Source of the DNA: Massilia aquatica | Lineage (GTDB): Bacteria > Pseudomonadota > Gammaproteobacteria > Burkholderiales > Burkholderiaceae_D | NCBI RefSeq assembly: GCF_011682045.1 | Contig: NZ_VVIW01000008.1 | Location: 124,001 to 188,000, forward strand | Length of the DNA stretch: 64,000 nucleotides | Reading direction: 5' to 3' | In this document: one piece after another, positions 18,590-29,515 of the stretch | Layout of the letters: each line of letters begins with the position of its first letter | Numbering within the stretch: position 1 is the first letter of the stretch | The notes under the pieces: model-generated | The model's input: only the letters and a program-made list of their open reading frames with translations | The model's database searches: none | Told to the model about the DNA's origin: nothing | Translations under genes and position numbers: made by a program

Positions 18590-19624
18590 TCAGACGATAT
18601 TGTGGACGACGGTCACCGAGCCGACCACGACCGGCTCGACGTGGGCAGCGGTGCCGTCCAGGCTCTGGCCGGCATCGGAAACGAAGCCCGACAGCACCGA
18701 CGCGCGCGAGACGCCGCTTTCCAGTACCTTGGTCCAGAACGCCAGTCCGCCGGCGTCCGGTGCGCGGTCGAAGGTGTTCTTGTACAAGGTGGTCAGGAAT
18801 TGCTGGTTGTCCAGTGCCGGCAGGGCCTTGTACTCGGCCGAGTCGAGGAAGCTCTGGGCAATGCTTTCCAGCGAGACGCCGGCACGCGCGGCGTCGAGCC
18901 AGAAGTCGAGACCACCGGCGTCCGGCGTACGGCCCAGCGCGGATTGGTAGATGGTGGCCACGCCGGCTTCCTTGAAGTCCTCGGCGAAAATCAGCGCCTT
19001 GCCGCCGTCGAGCTCGACGTACTGCAGCTTGCTGATGTCGGTGGTTTTCAGGGTCGTGTTGCTGCTCACGATGGCGTGACCGTCCTTGACCGTGACCTTG
19101 TAATCGGCCGCGCTGCCCGCCAGCTTGACGATGGCGTTGCCGGTGCCGCCCACCACGGTGCTGTTGCCCAGGCCGGCAACCACGGTGTCGTTGCCGCCGC
19201 CGGTTTGCACGGTGCTGTTGCCGCTACCCAGGTTGAGCTGGGTATCGCGCGAATCGGCGATCACGAACTTGTCGGTGTTGTTGGTGCCGACCACAACGCG
19301 GTCGACCTTGTTGTCGGGCGCGGGACCGCCGATGTCCTGGAACTTGACGTCGACGCCGCCCTTGCCCTGGAACACGATCACCGGCGCATTGGTCGGTGGC
19401 GTGATGACGGTGACGAAATTGTCGGACGAGTTGACCAACAACACTTCGGCGCCAAACGGTGCGGTGACCTTGCCGTAGGTGTCGGGAGCGACCGTATCGA
19501 AGCGCACCGAATTATCGGTGGCGGCGGTGAGCCCCAGAATGCGGTCGATGGTGCCCTGGGTGAAGATCAGGGGATTGATGCCACGCAGGGTCGTGGTGGC
19601 ACTCGCGCTCGGTAGTTCATACAT
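18590..19624 (-). CDS. DUF4214 domain surface/secreted protein
   Basis: 344 residues, very rich in Gly, Asn, Asp, Thr and Val, with no cysteine and no classical signal peptide. The middle has RTX-like beta-roll strands (LNLGSGNSTVQTGGGNDTVV then GLGNSTVVGGTGNAIV). Two DUF4214 units follow (ALGRTPDAGGLDFWLDAARA and TFDRAPDAGGLAFWTKVLES). The C-terminus ends in hydrophobic residues (VVHNIV), as in type I secretion substrates. A strong GAGGAG site precedes the ATG. It lies at the head of the glycan operon and is a candidate glycosylation acceptor, with many Ser/Thr and Asn. A second DUF4214 protein is encoded at 60602-61954. Confidence 0.85.
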   Translation of the reverse strand: MYELPSASATTTLRGINPLIFTQGTIDRILGLTAATDNSVRFDTVAPDTYGKVTAPFGAEVLLVNSSDNFVTVITPPTNAPVIVFQGKGGVDVKFQDIGGPAPDNKVDRVVVGTNNTDKFVIADSRDTQLNLGSGNSTVQTGGGNDTVVAGLGNSTVVGGTGNAIVKLAGSAADYKVTVKDGHAIVSSNTTLKTTDISKLQYVELDGGKALIFAEDFKEAGVATIYQSALGRTPDAGGLDFWLDAARAGVSLESIAQSFLDSAEYKALPALDNQQFLTTLYKNTFDRAPDAGGLAFWTKVLESGVSRASVLSGFVSDAGQSLDGTAAHVEPVVVGSVTVVHNIV

Positions 19625-20878: not shown

Positions 20879-23317
20879 CTACCAACGATAGTTGGCGGTG
20901 GCCAGCACTTCACGCCGGTCGCCCGGATAGCAATCGCCATCGCTGCAATTGCCCAGATGCTTCTTGTCGAACAGGTTGCGCGCGTTGAGCGACAGTTCCC
21001 AATGCGTGCCGATCTGATAGCCGAGGCGCGCATCGAACAAGGTCACGCCCGGTACCCAGCGCACGTTCTCGAAGTCGGGCACCTTGCTGTTATAACGCAC
21101 GCCCATGCCGACTTTCATGCCCGACACCCACGCGCCCGGGATGCGCGCGTTCACCCACAGCGCCGCCTTGTGCGACGGTACCAGGCCGTTCTTGCGCCCG
21201 ATCAGATTCGGCTTGGTGTCTTGCGTGACCCTGGCGTCGGTGTAGCTGTAGCTGGCGGTGGTGTCGATGCCCTGCGCCAGGCTGGCGTTCGCTTCGAGCT
21301 CGATCCCGCGCGAGCCGACTTCGCCGCGCTGCACGTTGAACCCTTCGTGCAGCGGATCGGAAGCGGCCACGTTTTGCTGGACGATGTCGAACACGGCCGC
21401 CGAGATCATGGCGTTGCTGCCGGCCGGCTCGTAGCGCACGCCGACTTCGTACTGGCGTCCGCTGGTCGGCTTGAACTTGAGGCCATCATAGGTGGCGCCG
21501 TTCTGCGGCTCGAACGAGGTGGCGTAGCCGACGTAAGGCGACACGCCGTTCGGCAGCAGCCACACGCCACCGACGCGGCCGGTGGTCTTGTTGGTGTTGA
21601 CAGGACCGTCGACCCAGGCGGCGACGGCGCTTTCGCGGAAGCGGTCCTGGCGCACGCCGGCCACGATTACGAACTGCCCGTCGTACTTGGCCTGGTTTTG
21701 CACGTACAGGCCGGTCTGGCGCGTGGTCGCCACGTACTCGGCCTTGAGCAGCGGCGCGGCGAACGCGCCGCTACCGGTGGAGAGGTCGAACTGGTTGGTG
21801 GCCGTGGTGCCACGGAACGACGCGCCACTGATCTTGCTCAGGTCGACGCCGGCGATGGTGGTGTTCGACCACTTGCCGGCGTTCCACTGGTATTCCATAT
21901 AGTTGTCGGTCTGGCGGCTCTCGGTGTAATCGTTGATGTGCTGCCCGCGCCGCGTCACAACGCTCTTGCTGATCAGGCCGGTGAGGAAATTGACCTGGTA
22001 GTCGAGCTTGACCTTGCCATAGCGGCTGCGGCTGTGAAAACTCAGCTTGTCGTTGATGCGGTGCTCGAACAGCACGCCGGTCGACCATTGATCGCGGTGA
22101 AAGTGATCCCAGCCTTTTTCGGCCACCGGAACGTAGTAGCCCAGCGCTTCGACGTACTTGAAAGGATAGGCGTCGCCCGCGATGCGGTCTTCCTGGTAGT
22201 TCGCCAGCACCGTCAGGGAGGTGTCGCCGTTGATCTTCCAGGTCAGCGAGGGCGCGAAGTAGCGCTCTTTCTTGGTCGAGCCCGGGGTCATCAGGTCGTA
22301 TTGCTCGGTCAGGCCGACCAGGCGGTACAGCAGGGAGCCGTCCGCGTTCAAGGGGCCGGAAATGTCGCCGGCCACGCCACGCCGGGCGATGTCGCCGGCG
22401 CGCACGCGGATCTCGCCCTGCGCTTCCGCGGTCGGACGCTTGGTGATCGAATTGACGGTGCCGCCGGGGATGGCGCTGCCGAACAGCAGCGAGGCCGGGC
22501 CGCGCAGGAATTCGACGCGCTCCACGCCGTAGCTGTTCAGGCGCGGCATGGCGTAGACATTGCCGGCGTCCTTCAGGCCGTCGCGGTAGTTGCCGCCGTT
22601 GGTGCTGCCGATACCGCGCGCGATCGACCAGTCATAGCGGTCGTCGCGGCCGTAGGTGCGCGGGGTAAAGCCCGGCACGTATTCGAGCGCTTCGGCCAGG
22701 TTCGATACGCCGCGCGCGTCCAGGTTGTCGCGCGTGACGACCGAGATCGACTGCGGCATCTCGCGCGTGGCGGTGGCGGTCTTGCTGGCCGTGCTGCTTT
22801 TCTTGGCGACGTAGCCGGCCAGCGGCGCGCTCGGGCTGTCGCCTTCGGCGCGCGCGGTCACGGTAATTTCGGACAAAGCCTGGGTGCGCGCCGGCGCTGC
22901 CACGGCGGCCGTGGCGGCGACCGGCGCCTGCTTGACCAGTATATAGCCGCCATTGGCTTGCGCCACGGCCGTCAGGTTGCTGCCTTGTAAGAGCACGGCC
23001 AGGCCGTCATTCACGCTGTAGTTGCCGTTCAGGCCCGCGCTTTGCAGGCCGGCGGTGGTAGCGGTCGGAAACGACAGCAAGATGCCCGCTTCGCGACCGA
23101 AGCGGTTCAGCGCGCCTTCGAGCGGACCGGCCGGGATGGCGTAGGCCTTGCGCGCCGGGGTGGCGTCGGCGGCCAGCGCCGCGCCTGGCAGGGCGGCCGT
23201 GGCGACCAGGCCGGTGGCCAGCGCGTGGCCGATGGCCACCAGCAGCGCGCGCTGGGTGAAGCGCGTGCGCGGCAGGGGGGTGATGGAAAGGTGTTGCGCC
23301 TTGTTGCGTGACCGCAT
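20879..23317 (-). CDS. TonB-dependent siderophore receptor with signalling domain
   Basis: 812 residues. A signal peptide ends near the ALAAD sequence. A secretin/TonB short N-terminal domain follows (AYAIPAGPLEGALNRFGREAGI to GGYILVKQA), which in FecA-type transducers contacts the anti-sigma factor. Next come the plug (SEITVTA, MPQSISVVTRDNL, VEFLRGPASLLFGSAIPGGTVNSITKRP) and a 22-strand-type barrel ending in the aromatic residue W. It imports a ferric siderophore across the outer membrane and signals its presence. The ATG at 23317 has an AAGGAAT site and starts the signal peptide. fecR and fecI lie immediately upstream, so expression is expected to depend on FecI and iron. Confidence 0.94.
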   Translation of the reverse strand: MRSRNKAQHLSITPLPRTRFTQRALLVAIGHALATGLVATAALPGAALAADATPARKAYAIPAGPLEGALNRFGREAGILLSFPTATTAGLQSAGLNGNYSVNDGLAVLLQGSNLTAVAQANGGYILVKQAPVAATAAVAAPARTQALSEITVTARAEGDSPSAPLAGYVAKKSSTASKTATATREMPQSISVVTRDNLDARGVSNLAEALEYVPGFTPRTYGRDDRYDWSIARGIGSTNGGNYRDGLKDAGNVYAMPRLNSYGVERVEFLRGPASLLFGSAIPGGTVNSITKRPTAEAQGEIRVRAGDIARRGVAGDISGPLNADGSLLYRLVGLTEQYDLMTPGSTKKERYFAPSLTWKINGDTSLTVLANYQEDRIAGDAYPFKYVEALGYYVPVAEKGWDHFHRDQWSTGVLFEHRINDKLSFHSRSRYGKVKLDYQVNFLTGLISKSVVTRRGQHINDYTESRQTDNYMEYQWNAGKWSNTTIAGVDLSKISGASFRGTTATNQFDLSTGSGAFAAPLLKAEYVATTRQTGLYVQNQAKYDGQFVIVAGVRQDRFRESAVAAWVDGPVNTNKTTGRVGGVWLLPNGVSPYVGYATSFEPQNGATYDGLKFKPTSGRQYEVGVRYEPAGSNAMISAAVFDIVQQNVAASDPLHEGFNVQRGEVGSRGIELEANASLAQGIDTTASYSYTDARVTQDTKPNLIGRKNGLVPSHKAALWVNARIPGAWVSGMKVGMGVRYNSKVPDFENVRWVPGVTLFDARLGYQIGTHWELSLNARNLFDKKHLGNCSDGDCYPGDRREVLATANYRW

Positions 23318-23411
23318 GGTTGATTCCTTGTGCAATAGTTGAAGATGTTGAGTGCTCACCTTCCATGTCACGCGAGAATCGAAAACAGCTCAGGTTTGTG
23401 AAAATATATTT

Positions 23412-24428
23412 TTATTGGCGTACCGGACGCACCGTAACCCAGTAGCGCGTGAGGAAATCGATCTCCACCGGCAGGGTGGTGCGCAGGGTGTCGAGGATGC
23501 GGCCGGTGTCGGCCAGCGGGTAGCTGCCGGACACGCGCAGGTTGGCAACCGCCGGGTCGCAGCCCAGGCGGCCGGGCCGGTGGCGTCCGAGTTCGGCCAG
23601 AAAATCGGCCAGGCGCATGCCGCTGGCGACCAGCATGCCGTCGGCCCAGGCGACGCTGTCGTCATCGGCGGCCTGGGCTGGCGCGACGGCAGCGGCGCTG
23701 AAGCGGGCCTGCTGGCCGGCGCGCAGGATGCGTAGCGGGGCCTCTATGGCGTTGCGCGGGCGGATCGCAACCGCGCCGTCGAATACATCGACCCTGCTGG
23801 CGCCGGCATGCTGGCGCACGGCGAAGCGGGTGCCGAGCGCTTGCAATTCGCCTTCGGCGGTTTCGACGATGAAAGGGCGCTCGCCGGGGTCCTTGCCGCT
23901 CGTGACCAGGATTTCACCGCCGACCAGCCGCACGCGCCGTTCGGTGGCGGAAAAGCGCACATCGACCGCACTGCCGCTGTTGAGCCAGACCGTGCCGCCA
24001 TCGGCCAGCACGATGCTGCGGCGCTGGCCGGTGCCGGTGCGGGCGTCGGCGCGCCATTCGCGCCAGGGCGCCTGCTGCTGCGCCAGCCAGGCGCCGCCGC
24101 CGGCGCACAGCAGGGCCGCCAGGGTCTTGGCGGCGGCGCGCCGGGGCAGGGGACGCGCCGGGGCGGCGGGCGTATCGAGCAGGGCCGCGTGCGACAGCGG
24201 CGAGGCACCGGCGGCGCCGCGCCAGCGCGCGTTGACGGCGGCGATGTGCTGCCAGGCGCGCTCGTGTTCGGGGTGGGCGGCGCGCCATTGCTGCAAGGCG
24301 GCGCGGGTGGCCTCGCTGGCCTCGTCCGACTGGAGCTCGACCAGCCACTCGACCGCCTGGCGCGCCACCGCGGCCGGGACCGGCGTGGGGTCGGTCCGAA
24401 GCTGCGCGCTGGCGTCGATTGCCCCCAT
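23412..24428 (-). CDS. fecR: FecR-type anti-sigma / sigma regulator
   Basis: 338 residues. An N-terminal DUF4880-like cytoplasmic part (AVEWLVELQSDEASEATRAALQQW...HERAWQHI), one membrane segment (AAAKTLAALLCAGGGAWLA), then the periplasmic FecR domain (RRSIVLADGGTVWLNSGSAVDV, GEILVTSGKD, FIVETAEGELQALGTRFAVR) and a C-terminal STN-like tail. It senses the receptor's periplasmic domain and controls FecI. The ATG at 24428 shares its A with the fecI stop (TGATG). I reject the longer frame to 24455 because it would overlap fecI. The gap to the receptor gene is 94 bases. Confidence 0.93.
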   Translation of the reverse strand: MGAIDASAQLRTDPTPVPAAVARQAVEWLVELQSDEASEATRAALQQWRAAHPEHERAWQHIAAVNARWRGAAGASPLSHAALLDTPAAPARPLPRRAAAKTLAALLCAGGGAWLAQQQAPWREWRADARTGTGQRRSIVLADGGTVWLNSGSAVDVRFSATERRVRLVGGEILVTSGKDPGERPFIVETAEGELQALGTRFAVRQHAGASRVDVFDGAVAIRPRNAIEAPLRILRAGQQARFSAAAVAPAQAADDDSVAWADGMLVASGMRLADFLAELGRHRPGRLGCDPAVANLRVSGSYPLADTGRILDTLRTTLPVEIDFLTRYWVTVRPVRQ

Positions 24429-24943
24429 CAGTCGAGCGACAGGCCGAAGTAGCACTGGGCGCCGGCGCGCACCAGGTGGCGCTTGACGGTGCTCAGTGAA
24501 ATGCCGAGTTCGGCGGCGATCTCGGCCTGGCCCATGCCATCGAGCTGGGCCAGCAAAAAGGCGCGCCTGACCTGGGCCGGCAGGCCGGCCAGTACGCTGT
24601 CGATCTCGACCAGCGTCTCGAGCAGGATGGCGCGTTCTTCAGGCGAGGGCGAGAGCGCGGCCGGCACCTGCGCCAGCGCGTCCAGGCAGGCGCGCTCGAT
24701 CTGCTCGCGGCGCCAGTGGTTGGCCAGCGCGCGCTGGGCCACGGTGGTCAGGAAGGCGCGCGGCTGGTCGATCGCGACCGGCTCCTCGCGCGCCAGCAGG
24801 CGCAGGAAGATGTCGTGCGCCAGGTCGGCGGCGCGCTGCGAACAGCCGAGCTTATTGCGCAGCCAGCCGCGCAGCCATCCGTGGTGGTGGCTGTACAGCT
24901 GGTGGACCTGCTGCTGAAGAAGCGCCGGGGCGGCAACGGACAT
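24428..24943 (-). CDS. fecI: ECF RNA polymerase sigma factor, FecI type
   Basis: 171 residues. Region 2 carries LYSHHHGWLRGWLRNKLGC and AADLAHDIFLRLLARE. Region 4 carries LPAQVRRAFLLAQLDGMGQAEIAAELGISLSTVKRHL, the helix-turn-helix for -35 binding. The length and both regions fit FecI-like ECF factors that turn on a cognate TonB receptor. An AGGAAT site precedes the ATG. A near-consensus Fur box lies 44-62 bases upstream, so transcription should rise when iron is scarce. It is the first gene of fecI-fecR-receptor. Confidence 0.94.
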   Translation of the reverse strand: MSVAAPALLQQQVHQLYSHHHGWLRGWLRNKLGCSQRAADLAHDIFLRLLAREEPVAIDQPRAFLTTVAQRALANHWRREQIERACLDALAQVPAALSPSPEERAILLETLVEIDSVLAGLPAQVRRAFLLAQLDGMGQAEIAAELGISLSTVKRHLVRAGAQCYFGLSLD

Positions 24944-25423: not shown

Positions 25424-28400
25424 ATGACAATGAAGCCTTGGAATCCGCTGTACAACGGCGGGTTGCAACATCCGCATAGCGCCGTCTGTAAGAAATCCTC
25501 TCTTGCCCTCTGTATTGCCCTGGCCTTCGCCGCCGCCGCGCCTCTCGCGCAGGCGGCCGTGGCCGCACCCGCCGCCGCGCCGGTGTCCACGCAGCGCGCC
25601 GCCCCGTACTGGCAGGACGCGACCGTCTCCACCGGGCGCATGGGCATCGCCAGCGCCGGCGCCAAAACGCCGGCCCTCTCGCTCAAGCGCTTTCGCGGCG
25701 CCACCCTGGACGCGGCCGGCATGGCCTCGCTGACCGCCAGCGCGCCCCTCGAGCGCGGCAACAGCATGATGGCCAGCAGCCAGACCATTTCGCTGCCGCA
25801 TCCGGACGGCGGCTACCAGCGCTTTACCCTGGTCGAGTCGCCCATCATGGAAGCCGGCCTGGCCGCGAAACACCCCGAGATCAAGACCTACAAGGGACGC
25901 GGCATCGACGACTCCAGCGCCACCTTGCGCATGGATATCACCCCGCTCGGCCTGCACGCCTCGGTGCGCTCGGCCAACGGCGGCTGGTACGTGGACCCGT
26001 ACTATCACCTCGATACCAGCCTGTACGCCAGCTACAGCCGCAGCGACCTGATCAACCAGCACGGCCCGCTGCTCGAAGGCGCGCTGCCCGAAGCGCAACT
26101 GGCGCTGGCGCACTCGTTCTATAAAGAAGGCGTCCCGGTCGAGGTGCGCGGCAGCGGCTTTGTGCCCGGCGCCACCGTCAACCTGACCGTGCGCGGCGAA
26201 GGCGACGCGGCCGCGCTGCACAGCGTCAGCGCCACGGCCGACGCCAGGGGCGCGATCAGCGTGATTCTGCCTGCGGGCCGGGCCGGCGCGTTCGAACTCT
26301 CCGCCACCGACGGCCACAGCACGGGCGCCGCGCCGTTCCGCGTGATGGACGCCGGCATGAACCCGAACGTGGCCGTCAGCGACCAGCTGCGCACCTACCG
26401 GCTGGCGCTGGTCACCGACCCGACCTACGCCACCTATTTCGGCGGTCCGGCCAACGTCACGGCGGCCAAGGTCACCCTGATGAACCGGGTCAGCCAGGTG
26501 TATGAGGATGAAACCTCGATCCGCATGGTGCTGATCGACGCCACCGACGCCCTCAATCTCGATACCCCGGCCCAGATGACCGAGCCGAACGGCCCGTGCG
26601 GCGCGGCGGCGTGCTTTACCCCGACCCAGGCGTCCGGTTGCGGCAGCGGCACCTTGTCGCGCAACCGCATCGTCACCGGCTTGCTGGCCGGGGCCGGCAA
26701 CTTCGATGTCGGCCACATTGCGCTCGGCCTGAACGGCGGCGGCGTCGCCAGCCTGGGCGTGGTTGGCGCCAACGCCAAGGCGCAGGGCTGCACCGGCCTG
26801 CCCAAGCCGATCGGCGACGCCTTTGCGGTCGACTACGTGGCGCACGAACTGGGCCACCAGTTCGCCGGCAACCACACGTTTAACGGCATTACTTCCAATT
26901 GCAGCGGCGGCAACCGCAATCCGGGTACCTCGGTCGAAGTCGGCAGCGGCTCGTCGATCATGGCCTACGCCGGCATTTGCAGCACCGACAACCTGCAGCC
27001 GCACAGCGACCCGTACTGGTCGCAGCGCAGCTTCGACGAGATCGTCGCCTATACCTCGAGCGCCGAGTCGATCCTCAACGAAGTGCAGGTCGCCGCGCTG
27101 CGCGGCTTTACCACGGCCGGGCAGCAATTCCGCATCAACGTGAACGGCAATCTGTCGGCGCCGATCGTGCGCGGCACCAATTACACCACGGCCGGCGTCA
27201 AGGCTGCGCTGGAAAGCAGCCCGGGCTGGCCCGCAGGCGGCACGGTGACGGTCAGCGCCCTGAGCGACACGGCCTTTACCGTGACCTTCAACGGTGCGCT
27301 GGCCGGGGTGAATGTGGCGCCATTGCAACTGGTCGACTTTACGCCGGGTGCGAGCGGTTTTGTGGGCGAAGTCGCCGTGGGCGGCCCGACCAGGCGCGGC
27401 GGCACCGTCGCCGCGACCGGCAACAACGCGCCGGTGGTGACCGTCCCGGGCAGCTACACGATTCCGGTGCGCACGCCATTCGCCCTGACCGGCAGCGCCA
27501 CCGATGCCGATGGCGACCCGCTCACCTACATGTGGGAGCAGAACGACCGGGGCGCGTCCAGCGGCACCGGGCTGACCAGCAACGTCAAGCTCAACGGCCC
27601 GCTGTTCCGCCAGTTCGGCACCCGCGCCACCGTCAGCGCCGCCGACACGCTCGAATACAACTCGCCGGGCGAGAACCACACGACGACCGATCCGACGCGG
27701 GTGTTCCCGGACCTGGCGCAGATCCTGTCGAACAACACCAATGCGGTGACGGGCGCGTGCGCGGTGGCGGCCACGCCGCCGAGCCTGGCCGATATCGAGT
27801 GCTATTCGGAATTCCTGCCGACGGCCGCCTACGTTGGCCTGGCCGGCACCAACGCCGCGCCGGCCTCGCTCACCTTCAAATTGACGGCGCGTGACGGCCG
27901 CGGTGGCGTCAACAGCGCGAGCACCAGCCTGGTGCTGGCGCCGGCGGCCGGTCCGTTCCTGGTGACCTCGCCCAACAGCGCGGTGACGCTCGATCCGGGC
28001 TCGGTGCAGACCGTTACCTGGAACGTCGCCAACACCGACGTGGCGCCGGTCGGCGCGGCCAGCGTCAACATTGCGCTCTCGACCGACGGCGGCAAGACCT
28101 GGCCGCTGCTGCTGGCCGAAGGCGTGCCGAACAACGGCAGCGCCAAGGTGACCTTGCCGGCGACGCCAGTGGCGGCTGCGCGGATCAAGGTGGAAGCGGT
28201 GGGTAATGTGTTCTTCGACATTTCCAATGCCGACATCGGCATCCACCTGGCGGGCGACCAGAACGTCGACGGCAGCGTCGACTGCGCCGACCTGGCCCTG
28301 GTCAAGGCGGCGTTCGGCAAGCGCAGCGGCCAGGACGGCTTCGATGTCCGTGCCGATGCGCAGGCCGACGGCGTTGTCAACGCGCGCGACCTGACTTATG

Positions 28401-28438
28401 TAGCGCAGCGCCTGGCCAAAGGCGCCGCCTGCAACTGA
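25424..28438 (+). CDS. Secreted reprolysin-like metalloprotease with C-terminal dockerin
   Basis: 1,004 residues. A signal peptide (hydrophobic ALCIALAFAAAAPLAQAA) is followed by a ~300-residue propeptide-like region. A zincin catalytic domain carries HELGHQFAGNH (His474, Glu475, His478, His484; HExxHxxGxxH) and a Met-turn SSIMAYAG near residue 512, as in M12B/reprolysin-like peptidases. PA-like and beta-sandwich domains follow (TDADGDPLTYMWEQ). The last ~60 residues (from 945) are a type I dockerin: DQNVDGSVDCAD and DAQADGVVNARD are two duplicated Ca-binding loops. The next gene encodes a cohesin, the natural dockerin partner. Expected to be exported by Sec and held at the surface. Confidence 0.92.
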   Translation: MTMKPWNPLYNGGLQHPHSAVCKKSSLALCIALAFAAAAPLAQAAVAAPAAAPVSTQRAAPYWQDATVSTGRMGIASAGAKTPALSLKRFRGATLDAAGMASLTASAPLERGNSMMASSQTISLPHPDGGYQRFTLVESPIMEAGLAAKHPEIKTYKGRGIDDSSATLRMDITPLGLHASVRSANGGWYVDPYYHLDTSLYASYSRSDLINQHGPLLEGALPEAQLALAHSFYKEGVPVEVRGSGFVPGATVNLTVRGEGDAAALHSVSATADARGAISVILPAGRAGAFELSATDGHSTGAAPFRVMDAGMNPNVAVSDQLRTYRLALVTDPTYATYFGGPANVTAAKVTLMNRVSQVYEDETSIRMVLIDATDALNLDTPAQMTEPNGPCGAAACFTPTQASGCGSGTLSRNRIVTGLLAGAGNFDVGHIALGLNGGGVASLGVVGANAKAQGCTGLPKPIGDAFAVDYVAHELGHQFAGNHTFNGITSNCSGGNRNPGTSVEVGSGSSIMAYAGICSTDNLQPHSDPYWSQRSFDEIVAYTSSAESILNEVQVAALRGFTTAGQQFRINVNGNLSAPIVRGTNYTTAGVKAALESSPGWPAGGTVTVSALSDTAFTVTFNGALAGVNVAPLQLVDFTPGASGFVGEVAVGGPTRRGGTVAATGNNAPVVTVPGSYTIPVRTPFALTGSATDADGDPLTYMWEQNDRGASSGTGLTSNVKLNGPLFRQFGTRATVSAADTLEYNSPGENHTTTDPTRVFPDLAQILSNNTNAVTGACAVAATPPSLADIECYSEFLPTAAYVGLAGTNAAPASLTFKLTARDGRGGVNSASTSLVLAPAAGPFLVTSPNSAVTLDPGSVQTVTWNVANTDVAPVGAASVNIALSTDGGKTWPLLLAEGVPNNGSAKVTLPATPVAAARIKVEAVGNVFFDISNADIGIHLAGDQNVDGSVDCADLALVKAAFGKRSGQDGFDVRADAQADGVVNARDLTYVAQRLAKGAACN

Positions 28439-28445
28439 CCGACGT

Positions 28446-28477
28446 GGCCGTCCGGGTGCACGCGCATCCGGCCGGCC
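28446..28477 (+). other. Intercistronic hairpin
   Basis: Bases 28446-28458 and 28465-28477 form a 13-position GC-rich stem with one mismatch and one wobble around a 6-base loop. It starts 8 bases after the protease stop and precedes the cohesin gene. There is no U-run, so it is more likely an attenuating or mRNA-stabilising structure than a full terminator; it would let the cohesin be co-transcribed at a different level. Confidence 0.4.
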
Positions 28478-28518
28478 CTTACCGCATACAATCCCATCAG
28501 GGCAATAGGACCAATCAG

Positions 28519-29082
28519 ATGATGACTTTCAAAAAATACTTCGCTGCCATGCTGCTGGCCGCGAGCACCCAGGCGTTTGCCATTCCGACGCTGTCGGTGA
28601 GTGCGTTACCGGCGCCGGTGGTATCGGGCGGCAAGCTGGACCTGGCTGTGAAGATTTCGGATATTACCGACCTGTACGGCTACCAGTTCACGCTCAGCTT
28701 CGATGCGGCGCTGCTCAAGGCGAACAGTTTCACGGAGGGCGCGTTTTTGTCGGGCGCCGGCACTACGTTCAGCGACGGCGGCACGATCGACAATGCGACC
28801 GGCACGATTTCGTTCGTGTTCAACACGCTGGTCGGTGCCGGGCCGGGCGCATCCGGAAGCGGAGAGCTGGGGCTGTTCAGTTTCGATACCTTTGGCAACG
28901 GCAATGCGGCGCTGACTTTTTCCGACGTGCTGTTCCTCGATGCGAACCTGAACGAGATTGCGGTCGTGGCCGAGGGTAGCTCGGTGCAGGTGGTGCCGGA
29001 GCCGGAAAGCTTCCTGCTGGTGGGGATTGGTTTGCTGGCGGCAGGTGTTGTGCGCCGGCGCCAGCTGGCGGCGCGCGGCTGA
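28519..29082 (+). CDS. Cohesin-domain protein with PEP-CTERM anchor
   Basis: 187 residues. The signal peptide ends at AFA near residue 20. Residues ~22-155 are a cohesin-type beta-sandwich (SVSALPAPVVSGGKLDLAV, DLYGYQFTLSFDAALLKA, GELGLFSFDTFGNGNAALTF, FLDANLNEI). The C-terminus has VPEPESFLLVGIGLLAAG followed by VVRRR, a complete PEP-CTERM sorting signal: motif, membrane helix and basic tail, processed by an exosortase (EpsH/XrtA type). The ATG at 28519 has an AGGA site. It lies 80 bases after the dockerin-bearing protease gene on the same strand. I infer that it is the surface receptor for that protease. No exosortase gene is in the window. Confidence 0.88.
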   Translation: MMTFKKYFAAMLLAASTQAFAIPTLSVSALPAPVVSGGKLDLAVKISDITDLYGYQFTLSFDAALLKANSFTEGAFLSGAGTTFSDGGTIDNATGTISFVFNTLVGAGPGASGSGELGLFSFDTFGNGNAALTFSDVLFLDANLNEIAVVAEGSSVQVVPEPESFLLVGIGLLAAGVVRRRQLAARG

Positions 29083-29146: not shown

Positions 29147-29515
29147 ATGCCAGATCGGGTCTCTGAGGTACTGGCGGCATACGCACGCGGTGAGCGACGC
29201 TTTCACGGCCTGGAGATCGACGGCGAGAGTTTCGAGCGCCAGGTATTGAAAGATGTGGTGTTTGAGGACTGCTTCTTCTATGTCAGTTTCCGGTTCGCCA
29301 ATCTGCGTAACGCAACATTCGTCAATGGCAATATCAAATGCTGCGATTTCAGGGATGCCGACCTGAGCGGCGCCCATTTCGAGAATTTGTCCGTTGAAAG
29401 CTCGCAATATGCACGCGCCAAAACGGATGGGCTCGTCTGGACCGGCAACTGGGCCTACGGCAGCATCTCGACCCAGGAGGACTTCGACAGCTGGATCAAG
29501 GACCATGAATACTAG
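29147..29515 (+). CDS. Pentapeptide-repeat protein
   Basis: 122 residues, cytoplasmic. A run of pentapeptide repeats with central Phe/Leu is visible (FRFANLRNATFVNG, CDFRDADLSGAHFENLSV), preceded by a short helical head and followed by a non-repeat tail (GSISTQEDFDSWIKDHEY). Such right-handed beta-helix proteins have varied roles, including topoisomerase protection and immunity; nothing here decides between them. GGGGGAAA upstream of the ATG is a good ribosome site. It stands alone between the cohesin gene and the convergent epoxide hydrolase gene. Confidence 0.75.
   Translation: MPDRVSEVLAAYARGERRFHGLEIDGESFERQVLKDVVFEDCFFYVSFRFANLRNATFVNGNIKCCDFRDADLSGAHFENLSVESSQYARAKTDGLVWTGNWAYGSISTQEDFDSWIKDHEY

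Follow-up and report, generated by a model that had tools for sequence, protein, structure and literature searches.

A cohesin with a PEP-CTERM tail encoded beside a dockerin-bearing metalloprotease in Massilia aquatica: a probable two-gene enzyme-tethering module

To our knowledge, the role of most PEP-CTERM proteins is still open. A passage of a 2017 paper (PMC5244752) states that it is not known what cohesin and dockerin proteins do when they are not part of a cellulosome. Two prior ideas come nearest to the system described here: the cohesin that sortase anchors in Gram-positive cellulosomes, represented by the scaffoldin ScaE of Ruminococcus flavefaciens (in a passage of PMC12484212), and the planctosome proposed for freshwater Planctomycetes, for which a section of PMC6461901 predicts, likewise without going beyond prediction, that M12B reprolysin-like peptidases are tethered at the outer surface by cohesin-dockerin contacts. 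A literature search found no paper that joins cohesin, dockerin and PEP-CTERM (an earlier mention in Peer 2009 or Haft 2012 is possible), and dockerin and exosortase were found mentioned together only for archaea. Here we analyse a stretch of 64,000 nucleotides from Massilia aquatica (assembly GCF_011682045.1, contig NZ_VVIW01000008.1, positions 124,001 to 188,000; hereafter the window), in which a gene for a dockerin-ended metalloprotease is followed by a gene for a cohesin with a PEP-CTERM tail. We hold with good confidence that the two form an enzyme-tethering module, whose exosortase-sorted cohesin would capture its own dockerin enzyme through calcium at the cell surface or in the matrix.

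The first gene (25424..28438, + strand) encodes a secreted M12B/reprolysin-like metalloprotease of 1004 aa with a C-terminal dockerin, as judged from Pfam and an alignment of 23 orthologues. An N-terminal signal peptide was read from the sequence, and Pfam placed Reprolysin_2 at residues 343-528 (7.8e-30) and Dockerin_1 at the C-terminal end, residues 943-997 of 1004 (34.7 bits; cut-off 22.9). The zincin site HELGHQFAGNH, which had been pointed out in a first-pass annotation of this DNA, lies at residues 474-484 (26843..26875, + strand), and its H474, E475, H478 and H484 are invariant in 23/23 orthologues. The same is true of M513, which we read as the probable Met-turn; on this reading the protease shows both the HExxHxxxxxH zinc site and the Met-turn of an M12B/reprolysin-like metzincin. 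Position 481 is occupied by A, S or G among the orthologues and is not strictly G.

The next gene on the same strand (28519..29082, +) starts after an intergenic gap of 80 bp from stop to start (28439..28518), for which a consensus scan for promoter-like and terminator-like sites came out empty, although little can be concluded from such scans. Its product, 187 aa counted from the ATG, is a single-cohesin protein possessing a signal peptide (by eye), a PEP motif, a hydrophobic stretch and a basic end; the PEP-CTERM sorting signal (VPEPES, hydrophobic residues, RRR) spans 28993..29061 (+). The scores for Cohesin (PF00963, 40.3 bits; cut-off 24.1) and PEP-CTERM (PF07589, 27.8 bits, cut-off 20.7; NCBIfam TIGR02595, 20.9 bits, cut-off 16) all exceed the curated limits, which bears out the first-pass description of this gene as one cohesin with a PEP-CTERM signal. 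A profile built from 32 such cohesins (A4) matched solved cohesins with a best E of 4.2e-13 (nearest 3l8q, 52.2 bits), and Pfam recognized Cohesin at E <= 0.01 in all 32 members. The closest named matches to the window cohesin come from Massilia species, and the cohesins of relatives are named by NCBI as cohesin domain-containing or PEP-CTERM sorting domain-containing proteins. Judged from sequence, the arrangement of the two genes is beyond chance, because these scores exceed curated cut-offs and relatives keep both genes as neighbours.

The first-pass annotation had proposed that the genome be searched for an exosortase and for other dockerin-ended proteins. Two exosortases were found with NCBIfam models in the 7.47-Mb genome, XrtA (348.6 bits; cut-off 208) and XrtB (408.8 bits; cut-off 275), together with 51 PEP-CTERM matches, and the genome contains one dockerin over the Pfam cut-off and no second one. 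Of three matches below the cut-off, we take C55 to be a secreted EF-hand-like protein, C5 a glycerophosphodiesterase-like protein and C44 noise. The cohesin search of this genome gave a single match; thus neither a multi-cohesin scaffoldin nor a long cohesin-bearing protein was seen in it.

Linked presence and absence of the two genes was observed among 294 genomes of the window's family. A protease match at E <= 1e-10 was obtained in 24 of them, and 23 were kept as orthologues after removal of one weak, partial match (G152). In all 20 orthologues that carry a dockerin, the protease gene has a codirectional cohesin gene as its neighbour, with a gap of 21-147 bp in the 19 loci other than the window (start taken as the nearest Met). 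In the remaining three (G177, G067 and G282) the protease ends exactly before the dockerin, and none has a cohesin neighbour (0/3). A dockerin-profile search of these three genomes found no dockerin of the paired type, and the family cohesin scan gave no match in G067 or G282; in G067 Pfam gave a single dockerin match above the cut-off (single-loop, in a 409-aa frame), and the two cohesin matches of G177 lie in long frames (769 and 775 aa), a length as in secretin fusions. The three proteases form one clade inside the dockerin-bearing ones, with forks supported at 83-100, and joint loss of the dockerin and the cohesin gene would be the simplest reading of this tree, which was built without an outgroup.

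When the same genomes were searched with the cohesin model, 24 short-frame cohesin genes were detected. One of them (G117) was dropped, as the neighbouring frames match the same secretin and the gene is thus a secretin split over three frames; this left 23 short cohesins in 22 genomes. Twenty adjoin the protease, two (that of G005 and one of the two copies of G210) adjoin a dockerin-ended GDSL-type hydrolase, and one (G125) adjoins neither. The dockerin profile was applied to 22 genomes, of which 17 have strong dockerins (74 bits or more in this count; 18 in all), equal in number to their short cohesins, three have neither a strong dockerin nor a short cohesin, and two (G125 and G569) have a cohesin only. 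In G210 an M12B pair occurs along with a GDSL pair, and this genome has two paired-type dockerins and two short cohesins. Long cohesin-matching proteins (open frames of 586 aa and up) are also encoded in many family genomes; these were set apart from the pair system because the only one checked by Pfam (L246:3263-5695; G125:C251) proved to be a secretin that has TPRs and ends in a cohesin. A stand-alone frame of 113 aa with a strong dockerin (58.5 bits; L245:5028-5366) was noted in G006, a small genome without a cohesin match.

An independent scan of 84,980 species genomes, in which loci were chosen by the cohesin alone, yielded 40 loci; neighbouring dockerins were scored with a profile built from the protease dockerins only. 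In 37 of the 40, the cohesin gene has a gene for a dockerin-bearing protein no more than about 1 kb away (42.8-127.3 bits); eight of these 37 (L150-L153, L155, L158, L177 and L186) come from genomes already present in the family scan, while L161 and L164 are near-copies. The misses (L187-L189) comprise two Poribacteria with dockerin-like loops in the same chain as the cohesin match and one Saprospiraceae with none; in the Poribacteria, both metagenome-assembled genomes (MAGs), this chain is a long one, with WD-like repeats visible by eye in L188. The gene order is dockerin-first and codirectional in 19 loci, divergent in 14 and cohesin-first in four (L180, where an open frame overlaps, was assigned by reading its start), and the divergent loci form one clade of the protease tree. 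Since adjacency holds in three gene orders, the comparison indicates that the cohesin-dockerin pair has stayed together through rearrangement and that one shared operon is, alone, an insufficient explanation.

The partner enzyme is not always an M12B protease. GDSL hydrolases (L183, L184, L064 and L065), GH10 xylanases (L174, L175 and L181), a penicillin amidase (L180) and an Ig-like protein (L185, a Bryobacter MAG) occupy the same place, and the cohesins beside the GDSL and GH10 enzymes form clades of their own, with SH-like approximate likelihood ratio test (SH-aLRT) values of 100 and 98. A mirror-tree comparison of 40 pairs gave a partial correlation of 0.36 after removal of the protease-core distance, which lends weak support to the pairing; none of 1000 label shuffles was as high, the shuffle ignoring phylogeny. 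The pair was found in named strains of several Burkholderiales genera, and a GH10 version of it lies in an Aquincola locus (L181). For an Aquincola strain that forms flocs, a passage of PMC9850573 names PEP-CTERM proteins as possibly belonging to the extracellular polymers. Spread of the pair by plasmids was rejected as a reading, since a tblastn search for the cohesin in 72,556 plasmid records gave no match at 1e-5. The first-pass annotation had described a single pair serving a protease: the pair is real, but this description was too narrow, as other enzymes and further genera carry the arrangement. Its proposal that the cohesin and the dockerin belong together is strongly supported by the linked presence and absence, the adjacency in three gene orders and the swapped enzymes.

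At the level of the order, 399 genomes were surveyed, with up to 8 and 15 candidates scored per genome. Eight short-frame cohesin matches reached 46 bits or more, and six of them (G000, G018, G481, G623, G308 and G594) have an adjacent dockerin-like protein, with a C25 peptidase (G481), a metallophosphoesterase (G623), PKD/cadherin repeats (G308) or an IgGFc-binding-like domain (G594) among the partner features; the other two, G321 and G569, have no such neighbour. Some members are weaker: in G308 and G594 both the dockerin and the cohesin fall under the Pfam cut-offs, with PEP-CTERM of G308 just under as well, and in G481 the cohesin does so. A phospholipase C family protein (G324) was found from the dockerin side, with its dockerin under the cut-off and no Pfam cohesin match. 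The divergent dockerin-like ends of G308 and G594 (L239 and L240) are followed by a cysteine-containing tail; possibly they represent a second dockerin subtype paired with a cohesin-PEP-CTERM protein.

The dockerin of the window protease (28250..28435, + strand) is of type I and runs to the end of the protein (Pfam; alignments A3 of 20 protease dockerins and A5 of 28 paired dockerins). Its nearest solved relative by profile search with A5 is 2y3n_B (56 bits), and Dockerin_1 was recognized by Pfam at E <= 0.01 in 28/28 members of A5. Two canonical calcium loops had been ascribed to it. This is right for loop 1 (DQNVDGSVDCAD), whereas in loop 2 (DAQADGVVNARD) calcium position 3, usually N or D, is occupied by Gln; across the 20 orthologous protease dockerins this position is Q, L, V or N. 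Loop 1 is degenerate in the GDSL-type dockerins (A5). Two cysteines, at position 10 of loop 1 and near the C-terminus, are common to the paired dockerins: they are invariant in 28/28 members of A5, and by pattern the pair is present in 39/39 paired loci and in 20/20 members of A3. Among dockerin-like controls not located beside a short cohesin (L121, L137, L145, L146, with a single dockerin loop, and L147), the position-10 cysteine occurs in 0/5; these are the usable loci out of ten, as L141, L142, L144, L148 and L149 were excluded because they had been read on the wrong strand. As the window cohesin lacks cysteine, the two residues are likely to form a disulfide within the dockerin itself.

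These observations suggest the following course of events. The protease and the cohesin protein would each be exported by means of an N-terminal signal peptide. Family knowledge leads us to expect that XrtA or XrtB cuts the cohesin protein at its PEP-CTERM signal and that the cut protein is then delivered to the outer surface or into a matrix of exopolysaccharide. The protease, secreted separately, would then be caught by calcium-dependent contact of its C-terminal dockerin with the cohesin and would work bound to the cell or the matrix instead of diffusing away, with products that the cell may use. In other Burkholderiales the cohesin-dockerin pair goes with other enzymes, each pair appearing to travel as one unit.

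Several results weigh against this interpretation. The proteases lacking a dockerin form one clade and would hence count as one evolutionary event. Short cohesins also occur alone: G125 has neither a dockerin neighbour nor such a dockerin anywhere in its genome, G321 and G569 encode a cohesin-PEP-CTERM protein without an adjacent dockerin (in G569 none of the paired type was found genome-wide), and the weaker cohesin match of G540 lacks a neighbouring dockerin, the sole dockerin match in that genome being on another contig. The proteins concerned in G321, G569 and G540 (L237, L238 and L241) are distant members of the cohesin-PEP-CTERM type. The pairing is not strictly 1:1 by Pfam, as another dockerin match above the cut-off is present away from the locus in G222, G144 and G232 (30.1, 27 and 25 bits); in certain strains the cohesin might therefore serve more than its neighbour. 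PEP-CTERM was recognized by Pfam at E <= 0.01 in 28 of the 32 members of A4, not in all. Among the nine non-M12B partners, the dockerin exceeds the Pfam cut-off (whole protein) only in L174, L175 and L185, is under it in L181, L183, L064 and L065, and is not listed for L180 and L184; those under the cut-off or not listed rest on the protease-dockerin profile. Binding of two calcium ions is uncertain because position 3 of loop 2 is atypical in the window's clade and loop 1 is degenerate in the GDSL-type dockerins. Finally, the genome scans scored limited numbers of candidates per genome (e.g. up to 2, 8 or 11).

The best surviving alternative, which we regard as unlikely, is that the cohesin binds the dockerin as a periplasmic export partner or a temporary protease inhibitor, with the PEP-CTERM tail holding it in the inner membrane until release. 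Linked genes in mostly equal numbers would agree with a dedicated partner no less than with an anchor, and the PEP-CTERM sorting mechanism is itself put forward as a proposal in a passage of PMC1569441. However, a protease inhibitor is unlikely in view of the partners that are not proteases (GDSL, GH10, penicillin amidase, metallophosphoesterase), and the retention of an exosortase-type tail on 28 of the 32 cohesins of A4, as judged by Pfam, also speaks against this alternative. Less probable still is the view that there is no binding between the two domains, i.e. that the dockerin is a calcium-stabilized C-terminal cap, the cohesin a separate adhesin, and the genes neighbours through shared regulation. 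The cohesin-PEP-CTERM genes without a dockerin neighbour are consistent with this view, whereas the absence of the dockerin goes together with absence of the cohesin gene, the codirectional, divergent and reversed orders share no single operon structure, and the same pair occurs with unrelated enzymes. A larger multi-subunit, cellulosome-like complex with scaffoldins or dockerin proteins encoded elsewhere, such as a section of PMC6461901 proposes for Planctomycetes and the further dockerins of three relatives might suggest, is very improbable and was rejected and largely refuted for the window's own genome, where the searches gave a single cohesin and, above the cut-off, a single dockerin, none of the three weaker matches reading as a dockerin of the paired type.

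As regards the surroundings of the pair, genes read as TonB-dependent-receptor-like, FecR-like and sigma-factor-like lie directly upstream of the protease on the opposite strand (20879-24943, -). FecR-like and sigma-like genes are also found near the locus in G111, G148 and G170, and a sigma-like one in G138. In the product of 18590-19624 (-), Pfam identified RTX calcium-binding repeats together with DUF4214. A small pentapeptide-repeat protein (Pfam), below the cut-off of every NCBIfam model listed, is encoded at 29147-29515 (+), downstream of the cohesin gene.

Returning to enzyme tethering through an exosortase-sorted cohesin, we lean towards the broader view that the window exemplifies a widespread, undescribed Gram-negative display platform, in which a single-cohesin receptor would hold a private dockerin enzyme and the enzyme would have been exchanged in evolution with the plug-and-socket pair kept. 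The exchanged proteins would be peptidases (M12B and C25), GDSL hydrolase, GH10 xylanase, penicillin amidase, phosphoesterases and possibly adhesins, the dockerin with its cysteine pair would constitute a subtype of its own, and mutually private pairs could coexist in one cell, as in G210. Such a pair points to a simple means, so far little studied, by which Gram-negative bacteria may keep enzymes at the surface and, if the interpretation is true, would provide a natural Gram-negative part for holding enzymes there or in the matrix. Being minimal, genetically linked and enzyme-swapping, it makes the questions of both cohesin/dockerin and PEP-CTERM function directly testable.

The locus shares with the PEP-CTERM/exosortase system, as set out in the part of Haft 2006 (PMC1569441) considered here, a signal peptide, a PEP-CTERM tail and exosortases in the genome; in contrast, cohesin and dockerin have no occurrence in the main text of that paper, and a PEP-CTERM protein acting as an enzyme receptor does not appear there. 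The planctosome, according to the section of PMC6461901 already cited, differs in its large multi-domain adaptor and anchor proteins, its lamin-tail anchoring and its inclusion of M14 peptidases, and that section describes neither PEP-CTERM nor a two-gene unit. The clostridial cellulosome, with its type I and type II cohesin-dockerin contacts, uses the same domain families (A4 to 3l8q, 52.2 bits; A5 to 2y3n_B, 56 bits), whereas the window system shows no multi-cohesin scaffoldin and has a protease instead of a glycoside hydrolase; a Pfam scan of the two proteins found no carbohydrate-binding module (CBM) in either, the rest of the genome not having been searched for CBMs. By analogy, the pair is likened to a sortase-anchored cohesin and is not a cellulosome. 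Like ScaE, which has a single cohesin, it would rely on a cohesin protein that is fixed to the envelope by a C-terminal sorting signal and receives dockerin proteins; unlike ScaE, which belongs to the Gram-positive LPXTG/sortase system, the cell wall and a multi-protein cellulosome, it combines PEP-CTERM and exosortase in an outer-membrane bacterium with one cohesin and one enzyme.

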